A stretch of DNA of 64,000 nucleotides, taken from contig NZ_QHKY01000007.1 in NCBI RefSeq assembly GCF_003194605.1, positions 1 through 64,000 of the forward strand, given 5' to 3'. Origin of the DNA: Nocardioides gilvus. Its GTDB lineage: Bacteria > Actinomycetota > Actinomycetes > Propionibacteriales > Nocardioidaceae. The translations under genes were made by a program, and so were the position numbers. The notes beneath the pieces were generated by a model, which was not told where the DNA came from, did not search any database, and saw only the letters and a list, made by a program, of their open reading frames with translations. This document shows, in pieces, positions 2,574-32,964 of the stretch (positions are counted from its first letter, which is position 1; every line of letters begins with the position of its first letter).

Positions 2574-3332
2574 ATGTGCGGACGGTACGCATCGAGTCAA
2601 CGGCCCGAGGACCTCGTCGAGGAGTTCGAGGTCGTCGACAATCGCGTGCCCACGCCCCTCGAGCCCGATTGGAACGTCGCGCCCACCAAAGAGGTGTATG
2701 CCGTCCTGGAACGCCCCAGCCGCACGGACGCCGACGGGGTCGAGCACCCGACGCAGCGTCAGTTGCGGACCCTGACCTGGGGGTTGGTGCCGTCCTGGGC
2801 CAAGGACCCGGGGATCGGCAGTCGGATGATCAACGCACGGATGGAGACCGCTGCGGAGAAGCCGGCGTTCCGCAAGGCGATGCGGGCTCGGCGCTGCCTC
2901 CTGCCCGCCGACGGCTACTACGAGTGGTACGTGACCGAGGCGACGACAGCCACCGGTCAACCGACCAAGCAGCCGTACTTCATCTCTCCAGCCGACGGGG
3001 GAGTACTGGCGATGGCCGGGCTCTTCGAGATCTGGCGTGACCCCGAACGATCCGACGACGATCCTGACCGGTTCCGATGGACCTGCACAGTGCTGACCAC
3101 CGCGGCCACCGACGACCTCGGGCGCATCCACGACAGGATGCCGCTGATGGTGGAGCGCGATGCCTGGAGCCCTTGGTTGGACCCCACCCTGGACGGGGTG
3201 GAGGAGGCCCGGTCCCTGCTCGTGCCGGCAGCCCCCGGCCGGCTCCGCGCCTACCCGGTGTCGGCGGTCGTGGGCAACGTACGCAACAACGGACCACACC
3301 TGGTCGAACCGTTGTCGTTGAGCGAGGAGTGA
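2574..3332 (+). CDS. SOS response-associated peptidase (SRAP/HMCES/YedK family)
   Basis: Starts MCGRYASS. In this family the initiator Met is removed so that Cys2 becomes the N-terminal nucleophile, which crosslinks to abasic sites in single-stranded DNA and shields them. This fixes the start at ATG 2574; the in-frame GTG 2568 would bury the Cys. Other family features are WNVAPT near residue 37, NARMETAAEKPAFR and the ADGYYEW segment near residue 110, and a late H (IHDRMPLM). Length of 252 aa is normal. Likely role: abasic-site DNA-protein crosslink repair in the cytoplasm. Confidence 0.93.
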   Translation: MCGRYASSQRPEDLVEEFEVVDNRVPTPLEPDWNVAPTKEVYAVLERPSRTDADGVEHPTQRQLRTLTWGLVPSWAKDPGIGSRMINARMETAAEKPAFRKAMRARRCLLPADGYYEWYVTEATTATGQPTKQPYFISPADGGVLAMAGLFEIWRDPERSDDDPDRFRWTCTVLTTAATDDLGRIHDRMPLMVERDAWSPWLDPTLDGVEEARSLLVPAAPGRLRAYPVSAVVGNVRNNGPHLVEPLSLSEE

Positions 3333-3335
3333 GAC

Positions 3336-4106
3336 GTGGAACCGATTGAGGAACTCATCGACACACCGCGAGGGGAAGGGCGGCTCCTGACGTACGCGGC
3401 TGACAAGCCGGCCGCGGTGCTGCTGCTCAGCCACGGTGCGGGCGGCGGGGTGGACGCCCCGGACCTGATGGCGCTGGCCGAGGCGCTGCCCCGGCAGGGC
3501 GTGAGCGTCGTCCTCTTCGAGCAGCCCTGGCGTCGCGCCGGCCGGAAGGTCGCCACGCCCCCGCCCACGCTCGACGAAGCCTTTCTGGCAGCGGCAGCGG
3601 CACTGCCCCGGACCGGGCTTCCGTTGATCGTCGGGGGGCGTTCGGCCGGGGCCCGCTCTGCGGCTCGTACGGCGCTGCAGATCGGGGCCAGCGGTTGCCT
3701 GGCGCTCTCCTTCCCCCTGCACCCTCCGGGCAGGCCGGACAAGTCCCGGGTCGCGGAGCTGCACGGAGCCGAGGTCACCACGTTGGTGGTGCAGGGCGAG
3801 CGGGACACCTTCGGCAGCCCGGCGGAGTTCCCCGATGACGTCGACGTGTGCGTGATCCCGTTCGCGGACCACTCGTTGAAGGTGCCGAAGCGCGCGCCCA
3901 TCGGTCAGGACGAGGCCTGGGCGATCGTCATCGAGGCGACGCTCGAGTGGATCGTGCGCGAAGCGGCAGGGGCCGCAGTGGGGAACGAAGCGGCAGGGGC
4001 CGCAGTGGGGAACGAAGCGGCAGGGGCCGCAGTGGGGAACGAAGCGGCAGGGGCCGCAGTGGGGAACGAAGCGGCAGGGGCCGCAGTGGGGAATGATCCG
4101 CGATGA
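3336..4106 (+). CDS. alpha/beta hydrolase (KANL3/Tex30, dienelactone-hydrolase-like) with repeat C-terminus
   Basis: Starts GTG 3336, three bases after the SRAP stop. LLLSHGAGGG near residue 32 is the oxyanion region and GGRSAGARSA near residue 107 is the nucleophile elbow (Ser). A late D (GERDTF) and H (FADHSLKV) complete a catalytic triad. The family core ends near WIVR; after it come five exact EAAGAAVGN repeats encoded by the 27-bp array, then DPR and stop. Substrate unknown. The repeat tail is not part of the normal fold. The 3' end overlaps the proposed sigR promoter. Confidence 0.8.
   Translation: MEPIEELIDTPRGEGRLLTYAADKPAAVLLLSHGAGGGVDAPDLMALAEALPRQGVSVVLFEQPWRRAGRKVATPPPTLDEAFLAAAAALPRTGLPLIVGGRSAGARSAARTALQIGASGCLALSFPLHPPGRPDKSRVAELHGAEVTTLVVQGERDTFGSPAEFPDDVDVCVIPFADHSLKVPKRAPIGQDEAWAIVIEATLEWIVREAAGAAVGNEAAGAAVGNEAAGAAVGNEAAGAAVGNEAAGAAVGNDPR
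3960..4094 (+). repeat. five 27-bp tandem repeats carrying hairpins and GGGGAA motifs
   Basis: Copies at 3960-3986, 3987-4013, 4014-4040, 4041-4067 and 4068-4094 are identical except the last base (c to t in copy 5). Each holds GCGGC-AGGG-GCCGC, a 5-bp stem with 4-base loop, and ends in GGGGAAC or GGGGAAT. That ending matches the -35 element of SigR/SigE-type ECF promoters. In frame it encodes EAAGAAVGN. Confidence 0.95.
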
Positions 4107-4115
4107 CGTCGTGTT
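4090..4115 (+). promoter_or_regulatory. SigR-type promoter (GGAAT-N18-GTT), probable sigR autoregulation
   Basis: GGAAT at 4090-4094, an 18-base spacer, then GTT at 4113-4115. This is the consensus of Streptomyces SigR and mycobacterial SigH promoters. Start of transcription is expected near 4122, just after the hydrolase stop at 4104-4106. The -35 is the end of the fifth 27-bp repeat, with C changed to T. Confidence 0.75.
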
Positions 4116-4172
4116 GTGCCTGTCGTGCTGGAGACGCTGACCAACCCCGAGACGACGGTAGTGTGGGACTCG

Positions 4173-4787
4173 ATGACTGACTCCCTGACCGAAGAGACCG
4201 ACGCGCAGCGCTCCGAGCGCTTCGAGCGCGATGCTCTGCAGTACCTCGACCAGCTCTACTCGGCGGCCATGCGGATGACCCGCAACCCCACGGACGCCGA
4301 GGACCTCGTCCAGGAGACCTATGCGAAGGCCTTCTCCGCCTTCCACCAGTTCAAGCCGGGGACCAACCTCAAGGCCTGGCTGTACCGGATCCTCACCAAC
4401 ACCTTCATCAACATCTACCGCAAGAAGCAGCGTCAGCCGCAGCAGTCGATGGCCGACAACGTGGAGGACTGGCAGCTCGCGCGTGCCGAGTCACACACCT
4501 CAGGTGGCCTGAAGTCGGCCGAGACCGAGGCGCTCGAAGGACTGCCCGACTCCGAGGTGAAGGACGCGCTGCAGCGTCTCCCCGAGGAGTTCCGTCTGGC
4601 CGTCTATCTCGCTGACGTCGAGGGGTTCGCCTACAAGGAGATCGCAGAGATCATGGAGACGCCGATCGGCACCGTGATGTCGCGACTGCACCGGGGGCGG
4701 CGCCAGTTGCGGGACATGCTGAGTGACTACGTACGGGAGAACGACCTGATCCCGGTGGGCACGTCGCAGAAGGGTGAGGGCAAGTGA
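4173..4787 (+). CDS. sigR: RNA polymerase sigma factor SigR/SigH (thiol-oxidative stress)
   Basis: Region 2 holds [18 protein letters not shown] and [14 protein letters not shown]; region 4 holds [17 protein letters not shown] and the helix-turn-helix around [15 protein letters not shown]. This is the signature of the SigR/SigH/RpoE group that directs thioredoxin, mycothiol and protein quality-control genes. ATG 4173 gives 204 aa. In-frame GTGs at 4116, 4125 and 4161 would give longer forms, but 4116 lies upstream of the predicted transcription start. Streptomyces SigR is known to have a longer unstable isoform, so a second start is plausible. It overlaps rsrA by four bases. Confidence 0.93.
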
Positions 4788-5041
4788 GCCACGACGACCA
4801 GGGGTGCGCCGACTACCTCGAGCGCATCGTCTACTTCCTCGACAACGAGTTGGACGAGGCGGACTGCAGTGTCGTCCAGCAGCACCTGGACGAATGCGGT
4901 CCGTGCCTGAACAAGTACGACCTGCAGAAGACGGTGAAGACGATCGTGGCCCGTTCCTGCAGCGAATCGGCGCCGCAGAGCCTCCGCGAGCGGGTGCTGG
5001 TCGAGATCCGAGAGGTCCAGCTCCGCATCTCCGAGGGCTGA
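4784..5041 (+). CDS. rsrA: mycothiol-system anti-sigma factor RsrA
   Basis: 85 aa; GTG 4784 overlaps the sigR stop (GTGA). Zinc ligands C8, H34, C38 and C41 match the ZAS pattern of Streptomyces RsrA with a three-residue offset. There, zinc release and a Cys-Cys disulfide free SigR under thiol oxidation. C28 is an additional Cys, also seen in the family. Cotranscribed with sigR, so the pair forms a redox switch with feedback through the upstream promoter. Confidence 0.95.
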
Positions 5042-5133
5042 GCAAGGCCGCTGCGCAGGTCCCGGAGGCCCTGATTGGCGCCGTGACCACTACGTTTGAG
5101 AGGATGTCGGCACTGACATCCAGGAGGATCACC

Positions 5134-5208
5134 ATGGGTAAGACCGGACGCAAGCGCCGCGCTCGTCGCAAGAAGGGCGCGAACCACGGCAAGCGCCCCA
5201 ACGCCTGA
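5134..5208 (+). CDS. ribosomal protein bL37 (24 aa)
   Basis: Encodes a 24-residue, Lys/Arg-rich peptide beginning MGKTGRKRRA and ending ANHGKRPNA, with a strong AGGAGGA ribosome site at 5121-5127. The ANHGKRPN ending matches actinobacterial bL37, the small large-subunit protein first seen in mycobacterial ribosome structures. It sits after rsrA and before a strong terminator, and is too short for usual gene callers. Confidence 0.85.
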   Translation: MGKTGRKRRARRKKGANHGKRPNA

Positions 5209-5223
5209 GCGCTGACAAGCACC

Positions 5224-5256
5224 AGGACCCCCGAGCCATCCGGCGCCGGGGGTCCT
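5224..5256 (+). terminator. intrinsic terminator after the sigR-rsrA-bL37 unit
   Basis: Ten-base perfect stem AGGACCCCCG (5224-5233) with CGGGGGTCCT (5247-5256), 13-base loop, followed by TTTG. It may also serve the leftward thioesterase gene that ends at 5273. Confidence 0.8.
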
Positions 5257-5272
5257 TTGCTGTGTTGGGTCG

Positions 5273-5659
5273 TCAGCTCAGCCGGGACATGAACTTCTCG
5301 GTGTCGACCACGACCCGGGTGATCTCGCCGGACCCCACCACCTGGACAGGCTTGTCGTTGACGACGTTGCGCGCGGAGACCGTGAAGCGATGCAGCCGCC
5401 CGTCGACGTAGGCGAGAGAGACCTGGACCTCCACCTCGGCGCCCACCGCGCTCGGAGCCAGGTGCTCGACGTCGATGCGGGTCCCGACGCTGGTCCCGCC
5501 GGAGGGCAGGGAGGGGCCGATCGCCTCGCAGGTCACCGCCTCCATCCAGGCGATGAGTCGTGGCGTCCCGAGGACGGGCAGCGTGCCACTGCCCACGGCC
5601 AGCGCCGTGTCATCGGCTGCAACGGTGAAACGACGGGTCAGGTACGGCGAGGTGTCCAT
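5273..5659 (-). CDS. hotdog-fold thioesterase (fluoroacetyl-CoA thioesterase FlK-like)
   Basis: About 128 aa with hotdog signatures: TPRLIAWMEAVTCEA, then GTSVGTRIDVEHLAPS and a final strand near VVGSGEITRVVV. Such proteins hydrolyse acyl-CoA thioesters. ATG 5659 is chosen; ATG 5671 is in frame but directly abuts GAGGG, leaving no ribosome spacing. It follows the ThDP enzyme by about 15 bases and is very likely cotranscribed. Substrate not determinable; a short or toxic acyl-CoA is possible by family analogy. Confidence 0.8.
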   Translation of the reverse strand: MDTSPYLTRRFTVAADDTALAVGSGTLPVLGTPRLIAWMEAVTCEAIGPSLPSGGTSVGTRIDVEHLAPSAVGAEVEVQVSLAYVDGRLHRFTVSARNVVNDKPVQVVGSGEITRVVVDTEKFMSRLS

Positions 5660-30930: not shown

Positions 30931-32964
30931 GTGAGCGAAACCACCACCGGATCCACCACCCCGCCGCCCGCCAAGAAGCGGGCCGCAAGCATCAACAGCA
31001 TGCTCCTCGCCGATCTCAAGGCGGTGGCTGGCGGTATCGGCATCGCCGGGGCCGGGTCCATGAAGAAGGCACAGCTGATCGAGGCCATCAAGGCCCATCA
31101 GGACAGCCATGCCGCCGGCGCGCCCCAGCGTGCGGCAGCGAAGGTGGAGCAGGCCAGGAAGGCCCCGACATCCGAGGGGGAGAAGACTGCTCCCGCTGAC
31201 GGGGCGCAGGAGTCCGCCGCCGCCGACGGTGGCGGCGACTCGAGCGCCGGGGACAAGCCCCGGGTCCGTACGACGCAACGCACCCGTCAGCGTCCGGTGC
31301 GCGCACCACAGGAAGGCGAGGCCCAGGCAGCGGAGCGTTCAGACGGCGCAGGGTCATCCGGTCAGGAGCAGGGCGCCAAGTCCGCCAGGTCCGCTCGACA
31401 GGACAAGCAGGAGTCGTCCGGCCAGGGCAAGCAGGAGCAGTCCGGCCAGGGCAAGCAGGGTCAGGGCAACAAGCAGGGTCAGGGCAACAAGCAGGCCAAG
31501 CAGGAGCAGTCCGGCCAGGGCAACAAGCAGGCCAAGCAGGAGCAGTCCGGTCAGGGCAAGCAGGATCAGCAGGAGCAGTCCGGCCAGGGCAAGCAGGATC
31601 AGCAGGGCAAGCAGAACCGACAGGACCAGAACCGACAGGACCAGAACCGCCAGGACCAGAACCGCCAGCAGGACCAGGGGCGTCAGGACCAGGCACGCCA
31701 GCAGGACGACGATGACTTCGACGACGAGGGTGGCAGTCGCCGCAATCGCCGCCGCCGCGGTCGCGAACGTACTGGCGGTCGAACGGGCGCCCGCAACGAG
31801 CCCGACACCACCATCCTCGAGGACGACGTCCTCGTGCCCGCTGCAGGGATCCTCGACGTCCTCGACAACTACGCCTTCGTCCGCACCAGTGGCTACCTGC
31901 CGGGAGCCGACGACGTCTACCTCTCGCTGTCGATGGTCCGCAAGTACGGCCTGCGCCGCGGGGACGCGCTCGTCGGGCAGGTGCGTCATCCGCGTGAGGG
32001 GGAGCGTCGGGAGAAGTTCAACCCGATGGTCCGTATCGACACGGTCAACGGCGTCGAGCCGGACGCTGCCCAGGAGCGCCCCGAGTTTGCCGACTTCACG
32101 CCGATCCACCCCGCTGAGCGGCTTCGTCTGGAGACCGACAGCTCCAACACCCTCGGTCGGGTGATCGACATCGCGGCCCCGATCGGCAAGGGACAACGCG
32201 GACTTGTCGTGGCGCCGCCACGCTCGGGCAAGACCGAGGTCATGGGGGCGATCGCCAGTTCGATCAGTGCCAACAACCCGGAGTGCCACCTGATGGTGGT
32301 GCTGATCGACGAGCGCCCTGAGGAGGTCACCGACTACCAGCGCTCGATCCGCGGCGAAGTCATCGCCTCGACGTTCGACCGCCCGGCCAGTGACCACATC
32401 CTGATCGCCGAGCTCGCCGTGGAGCGGGCGAAGCGGCTGGTCGAGCTGGGCCACGACGTCGTCGTCCTGATGGACTCCCTGACGAGTCTGGGTCGGGCCT
32501 ACAGCACCGTGGTCCCGGCGACCGGAAAGGTGCTGCACGGCGGTGTCGACTCCGCCGCACTGCATCCCGCCAAACAGCTCTTCGGTGCGGCGCGCAACGT
32601 GGAGGACGGTGGCTCACTGACCATCCTCGCCACCGCGATCGTCGAGACGGGGTCCTCCGCGGACGACGCCATCTTCGAGGAGTTCGCCGGCACGGCCAAC
32701 ATGGAGCTGGTGCTGCGCGGAGAGCTTGCCGCGCGTCGGCTCTTCCCGCCCGTCGACGTGGTCGGTTCGTCGACCCGGCGCGAGGAGCACCTCCTCGGCG
32801 AGGAGGAACAGGCCATCCTGCTCAAGTTGCGTACGGCCTTGATGGACGTCGACGCGCTGCCTGCTCTGGAGTCGGTGCTGGGGCGGATGTCGCGCACCAG
32901 GAACAACGTCGAATTCCTGTCCAAGGTCCAGCAGGCCGACGTCTCGGAACTGGCCAAGCGCTGA
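30931..32964 (+). CDS. rho: transcription termination factor Rho with Gln/Gly/Lys-rich insert
   Basis: 677 aa from GTG 30931 (GGAAGGG upstream); GTG 30886 is an in-frame alternative. N-terminal Rho_N helix-extension-helix (SINSMLLADLKAVAGGIGI). Residues about 70-270 form a disordered segment with GQGKQ-type repeats and NRQDQ repeats, then DDDDFDDEGG and an Arg-rich patch. After that come the RNA-binding domain (ILDVLDNYAFVRTSGYLPG) and the ATPase with PPRSGKTEVMG, LIDERPEEVTDY and the Q/R-loop region. Hexameric RNA translocase. The insert is larger and more glutamine-rich than in E. coli. Confidence 0.97.
   Translation: MSETTTGSTTPPPAKKRAASINSMLLADLKAVAGGIGIAGAGSMKKAQLIEAIKAHQDSHAAGAPQRAAAKVEQARKAPTSEGEKTAPADGAQESAAADGGGDSSAGDKPRVRTTQRTRQRPVRAPQEGEAQAAERSDGAGSSGQEQGAKSARSARQDKQESSGQGKQEQSGQGKQGQGNKQGQGNKQAKQEQSGQGNKQAKQEQSGQGKQDQQEQSGQGKQDQQGKQNRQDQNRQDQNRQDQNRQQDQGRQDQARQQDDDDFDDEGGSRRNRRRRGRERTGGRTGARNEPDTTILEDDVLVPAAGILDVLDNYAFVRTSGYLPGADDVYLSLSMVRKYGLRRGDALVGQVRHPREGERREKFNPMVRIDTVNGVEPDAAQERPEFADFTPIHPAERLRLETDSSNTLGRVIDIAAPIGKGQRGLVVAPPRSGKTEVMGAIASSISANNPECHLMVVLIDERPEEVTDYQRSIRGEVIASTFDRPASDHILIAELAVERAKRLVELGHDVVVLMDSLTSLGRAYSTVVPATGKVLHGGVDSAALHPAKQLFGAARNVEDGGSLTILATAIVETGSSADDAIFEEFAGTANMELVLRGELAARRLFPPVDVVGSSTRREEHLLGEEEQAILLKLRTALMDVDALPALESVLGRMSRTRNNVEFLSKVQQADVSELAKR
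31416..31705 (+). repeat. imperfect coding repeats in rho (SGQGKQ and NRQDQ units)
   Basis: Repeated tccggccagggcaagcag-like units (31416 to about 31606) encode SGQGKQ/EQSGQGNK. Repeated aaccgacaggaccag units (about 31615-31675) encode NRQDQ. Base changes between copies are mostly synonymous third positions. Confidence 0.85.

Follow-up and report, generated by a model that had tools for sequence, protein, structure and literature searches.

The window, i.e. the whole 64,000-nucleotide stretch of Nocardioides DNA analysed here, contains a perfect tandem array of five 27-bp units, which encodes the end of an alpha/beta hydrolase and extends into the -35 element of the predicted promoter of sigR. 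In all likelihood, this array constitutes a passenger expansion of the gene tail, in which the fifth copy would provide the sole working promoter while copies 1-4 would be inactive. The underlying arrangement, with the -35 element encoded by the final codons of the upstream gene, is found in many Nocardioides and is a more solid result than the array itself.

The coding tandem array

Tandem Repeats Finder reports 5.0 copies of a 27-bp repeat at 3959-4093 (forward strand) with 100% match and a score of 270. The array resides in the 3' end of a gene for an alpha/beta hydrolase (Abhydrolase_11; 3336-4106, forward strand; Pfam PF20408, 6.4e-37, residues 26-206), which also accommodates the -35 element. 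Read in the register 3960-4094, each unit corresponds to GAAGCGGCAGGGGCCGCAGTGGGGAA(C/T) and encodes EAAGAAVGN; the C-terminus of the protein consists of (EAAGAAVGN)x5 followed by DPR, and the frame stays open as far as the stop codon at 4104-4106. With a unit length that is a multiple of three, an open frame and a position past the end of the domain at residue 206, the array represents an in-frame coding minisatellite. In the register that begins at 3959, the C terminating copies 1-4 already belongs to the next unit as its first base, and the T of the last copy is the base directly past the array. The 3' edge of the array falls within the -35 element, and the array thus overlaps or abuts the predicted sigR promoter. 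A search of the genome with 3900-4200 matched this region only and yielded no second copy of the array. The original prediction had described 27-bp units that end in GGGGAA(C/T), encode EAAGAAVGN and form one hairpin each, which is borne out by the five perfect copies in register 3960-4094 and by a unit hairpin, GCGGC-AGGG-GCCGC, of -9.8 kcal/mol and a z of -2.1 (10 of 200 shuffled sequences fold as well).

Because of its coding capacity, the array might be selected via the hydrolase protein, for instance through an effect of the Ala/Gly-rich tail on stability or location, with the promoter as a bystander. In favour of this, the units are exactly in frame with nine residues each and supply 45 low-complexity residues of a tail that extends 48 residues past the domain. 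Nevertheless, the median tail at 199 genus loci comprises nine residues, nothing similar occurs elsewhere among the 203 genus loci scanned, and a 27-bp unit preserves the frame regardless, which makes selection through the protein improbable. An even smaller probability attaches to the copy number being an artefact of assembly: perfect repeats can be misjudged by assemblies, but the edges of the array are clean, and five copies amount to 135 bp and hence lie inside common read lengths.

Further tandem repeats are present in the window, namely at its edge (1-276), where 18-bp units form a 90-bp higher-order repeat, and at 31399-31707, with periods of 15-69 bp and units such as CAGGGCAAGCAGGAGCAGTCCGGC.

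The predicted SigR-type promoter in the fifth copy

Copy 5 (GGAAT at 4090-4094) is alone among the copies in running into GGGAAT-N18-GTT (4089-4115), just as the original prediction had it, with GGAAC-N18-GTG in each of the four others. The sequence conforms to the SigR/SigH-type layout, i.e. a GGAAY -35 element, a distance of 17-19 bases and a GTT -10 element. In the proposed SigR-dependent promoter of sigR, termed p2, the -35 element GGGAAT occupies 4089-4094 on the forward strand, where it encodes Gly-Asn in the hydrolase frame by means of the Asn codon AAT, and the -10 element GTT occupies 4113-4115 on the same strand. When both strands of the window were scored with a model built from the 187 genus sites with an N18 spacer, the window's own site included, 4089-4115 ranked top of 127,924 positions with 21.2 bits, ten bits ahead of the runner-up at 11.2. 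In the genome as a whole, GGGAAT-N18-GTT occurs 10 times compared with 0 occurrences of the reversed pattern, and the more general GGAAY-N18-GTT is found at 76 sites compared with 21 for its reversed-pattern control.

The conservation of this site was traced in 215 Nocardioides genomes, one per species. A sigR orthologue was present in 211 of them and lacking in four (G179, G186, G196 and G199); since one genome (G205) carries two, the set comprises 212 loci, from which a second sigR-like match of G197 (C44) was kept out. Within 320 nt upstream of sigR, GGAA(T/C)-N17..19-GTT was detected at 207 of the 212 loci, 187 times with N18 and 20 times with N19. By comparison, first-order Markov sequences showed the motif at 1.16 loci on average and at no more than 4 in 50 runs, and four permuted motifs gave 0, 0, 1 and 0. 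Four of the five misses read GGAAG-N18-GTT, and at the fifth (L274) the upstream sequence is limited to 86 nt; hence a GTT-bearing site, GTT being required by the search, is found at 211 of 212 loci. Beyond the genus, a sample of 40 loci from 18 genera of the family, hand-picked from 120 matched genomes to cover genera, showed the site within 400 nt upstream in all 40 cases. The claim of the original prediction that 4089-4115 completes a SigR promoter of sigR is thereby strongly supported, and its statement that the -35 element recurs in the array is likewise correct. Taken together, 4089-4115 very likely harbours a genuine SigR-type promoter, and we infer that it is used by SigR. Moreover, the occurrence at almost every sigR locus, as against about one expected by chance, shows that GTT is near-obligatory at these sites.

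Some individual sites deserve mention in their own right. The four loci with GGAAG as -35 element of the sigR promoter (L108, L111, L115 and L276) have it outside the hydrolase gene, with a common GTTGAGCATCGACGTGA. The two sigR loci of G205 (L274 and L334), one of which is partial at a contig end, perhaps reflect a mixed assembly. Among the 10 occurrences of GGGAAT-N18-GTT in the genome, L261 (G000:C1:123572-123598) is situated 49 nt 5' of a potential start codon of a gene with similarity to primary-type (SigB/RpoD-like) sigma factors, although none of the full-length primary-type models attained its curated cut-off in a search with 300 residues. Finally, L266 and L267 (G000:C4:442923 and 443640) are identical SigR-like matches 717 bp apart in an apparent long direct repeat.

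The start region of sigR-rsrA

Downstream of the array, the forward strand carries sigR, which encodes an ECF sigma factor (4173-4787; TIGR02947, 3.1e-108), and rsrA, which encodes its anti-sigma factor (4784-5041; TIGR03988, 7.6e-28). Shortly 3' of rsrA, a gene for the ribosomal protein bL37 with 24 residues is located at 5134-5208 (NF047428).

Nine nucleotides past the GTT of p2, a GTG at 4125-4127 (forward strand) is the proposed start of an extended SigR isoform with 16 additional residues. This in-frame start is conserved: at 206 of 211 loci, a start codon (ATG or GTG) in the sigR frame follows 8-10 nt past GTT, as opposed to 1 and 0 in the other two frames. Eight nucleotides before the sigR ATG at 4173, the hexamer TAGTGT (4159-4164, forward strand) is the proposed -10 element of a housekeeping promoter, p1. 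A corresponding TANNNT precedes the in-frame start by 8 nt (180 loci) or 5 nt (25 loci), i.e. at 205 of 211 loci, compared with a mean of 2.8 and a maximum of 8 in Markov controls. The p2 transcript is thus probably leaderless or nearly so, and the conserved spacings suggest leaderless expression of long and short SigR isoforms across the genus.

The positions of p2 and p1 also bear on the notion that the array acts in RNA, where its hairpins would slow or stop read-through from the hydrolase gene into sigR. Indeed, the whole array is predicted to fold strongly, at -55.4 kcal/mol with a z of -4.7, and none of 200 shuffled sequences folds as well. Nonetheless, the array is lineage-specific and lies upstream of the predicted p2 and p1 transcript starts, and no terminator-like site was found at 3300-5300, for which reason a reading as terminator or attenuator was discarded. 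An action in RNA therefore appears very improbable.

The -35 element within the gene tail

The hydrolase gene could be resolved at 199 of the 207 sites for counting overlaps and at 203 of the 212 loci for scanning arrays. By rule, the -35 element does not reach beyond the hydrolase frame at 131 of 199 loci. Upon recheck, 122 of these end before the stop codon, seven overlap it, and two (L095 and L318) are uncertain owing to a hydrolase match that breaks off; after removal of this pair, the -35 element lies within the last hydrolase codons at 129 of 199 genus loci. At 96 loci, exactly 15 bases separate its end from that of the stop codon. The arrangement extends to other genera of the family, in which the terminal codons of the neighbouring gene contain the -35 element at 21 of 34 sampled loci.

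The codons concerned bear the mark of the promoter. Inside the -35 element, Asn is encoded by AAT in 114 of 118 cases, in contrast to the other Asn codons within the last 600 nt of the hydrolase genes, of which 206 of 211 are AAC, four of these being the array's own, and 5 are AAT. Hence, the promoter contains a codon seldom used otherwise.

Across the genus, hydrolase tails often consist of Val/Ala-Gly-Asn plus a few further residues. Five loci (L119, L131, L282, L286 and L300) feature tails with two Gly-Asn each; there, only the last one corresponds to the promoter's GGGAAT, the earlier one being encoded by GGCAAC, GGGAAC or GGAAAT. L282 represents the clearest 12-bp duplication among them, the other four being too diverged for certainty.

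The array and its possible influence on sigR

In the genus, the array occurs at 1 of 203 loci, namely in this genome only; no such array was found at the other 202 loci scanned, where the next-best tandem score is 9 as compared with 27, nor at 34 loci from other genera, with a best tandem score of 6. Consequently, the array is not a conserved control device. The hydrolase genes of the nearest relatives end in REAAGDVVGNQSA (L003) and REAAGDALGNQTA (L270), with one unit each. The idea that a near-unchanged ancestral unit precedes the working -35 element was dropped, since the 27 nt 5' of it share only 15 and 17 of 27 positions with L003 and L270, respectively; by the same token, the upstream context of the working -35 element may have been altered.

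Copies 1-4 differ from copy 5 in the default Asn codon AAC and in the -10 region. Their GGAAC, at 3982, 4009, 4036 and 4063, satisfies the GGAAY -35 element, but at 17-19 bases no GTT -10 element follows; each has GTG 18 bases on instead (3982-4088 in total, forward strand). Accordingly, they score -1.2 bits each compared with 21.2 for copy 5, a difference to which the penalty for GTG contributes in a partly circular manner, as the model sites were collected by requiring GTT. They rank 56th of the 127,924 window positions on both strands, which means that part matches as good as these arise about once per kilobase. Outside the array, GGGGAAC-N18-GTG has six further occurrences in the genome (reversed-pattern control, 4). 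The GTG encodes the Val in the Val-Gly-Asn of the following unit, and the 18-base distance thus follows automatically from tandem copying of 27 bp. Because the copies are identical, any decay of copies 1-4 is not visible within this genome.

The original prediction had regarded copies 1-4 as near-promoters that could act as sigma decoys. This view found no support: with -1.2 bits each and four part sites set against 76 fuller matches in the genome, a decoy function is unlikely. In a broader form, the array might be a promoter tandem repeat that tunes sigR, whereby extra -35 elements would keep or supply SigR holoenzyme close to the promoter, or compete with the latter, and a change in copy number would shift the stress response. 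Several observations accord with this. GGAACG in copies 1-4 fits the GGAAYR -35 element of SigH from Mycobacterium tuberculosis, GGAAC is found at 13 of the 207 natural genus sites, and in M. tuberculosis there are promoter tandem repeats whose copy number has been argued to matter for expression. The 10 to 12 differences from the nearest relatives within the 27 nt before the working -35 element point in the same direction, and instability is to be expected of perfect 27-bp repeats. With a perfect -35 element and two of three -10 bases, weak binding of SigR at copies 1-4 is possible. On the other hand, these copies lack GTT, are outnumbered by the fuller sites of the genome and belong to an array that is not conserved, which renders tuning of sigR by the array unlikely. 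The specific proposal that holoenzyme binds weakly to the extra -35 elements and that changes in the number of repeats adjust SigR autoregulation in its gain or threshold is no more probable.

Relation to known systems

In Streptomyces coelicolor, sigRp2 is the autoregulatory SigR promoter, from which a SigR extended by 55 or 58 residues is produced (PMC5472188, PMC4921905). The Nocardioides locus resembles this system in having a SigR-type promoter upstream of sigR-rsrA, a second promoter downstream and a predicted N-terminally extended SigR. It differs in that the -35 element lies inside the upstream hydrolase gene with a tandem array abutting it, that the proposed extension measures 16 residues, and that both transcripts would be leaderless or nearly so judging by sequence. 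The predicted start region fits the two-promoter, two-isoform design of S. coelicolor, with short or absent leaders.

Concerning the promoter elements, the GGAA...GTT layout is shared with the SigH promoters of M. tuberculosis and Corynebacterium glutamicum (PMC4803200, PMC3489674), which likewise serve a SigR/SigH-type sigma factor. For M. tuberculosis SigH, the consensus is GGAAYR-N17-GTT, with some tolerance reported at each -10 position (PMC4803200). Unlike these promoters, copies 1-4 present GTG at the -10 position, and only copy 5 matches in full. Like DNA sponges, i.e. decoy binding sites (PMC7686491), an array with several copies of a binding site might in principle titrate away a regulator; the present case departs from such sponges with four part-matching sites against 76 fuller ones in the genome.

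By position, the array belongs to the broad kind of promoter tandem repeats. Those at dop, lpdA and cysG of M. tuberculosis vary between isolates as well as within cultures and have been argued to change expression (PMC12817950). Like them, the present array reaches into or abuts a promoter; in contrast to them, its unit carries a -35 element only and codes for protein. The original statement that no described case was known consequently goes too far for the general kind (PMC12817950). For an array of precisely this type, a literature search of titles and abstract openings, covering few subscription papers, yielded no description.

Proposed origin and implications

The passenger expansion preferred here can be pictured as follows. 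The site at 4089-4115 would be an old promoter through which SigR regulates its own operon, sigR-rsrA, with a -35 element encoded, as in many Nocardioides, by the final codons of the hydrolase gene upstream. In this lineage, a 27-bp stretch of the tail comprising most of the -35 element would have been tandemly duplicated and then, by a recent in-frame expansion, have reached five identical copies, with slippage or unequal recombination as the likely route. The last copy would retain the ancestral junction and thereby remain a working promoter. The -35 element probably went along as a passenger: copies 1-4 would have kept GGAAC but lack GTT, and no transcription start is expected from them. 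The simplest cause of their AAC is the duplication boundary, given that the C is the next unit's first base in the 3959 register; alternatively, a T-to-C change may have preceded amplification. We infer that the array has little or no effect on sigR expression.

Should the array tune SigR nonetheless, it would provide a simple, slippage-driven means of varying a stress response, such that replication slippage in the tail of a hydrolase gene would tune the response to thiol stress. Irrespective of the array, two codes are written in the same bases at these loci, where the -35 element is encoded by codons of a gene tail and marked by the otherwise rare Asn codon AAT. The array would represent a natural case in which half a promoter is duplicated along with the coding tail that contains it.
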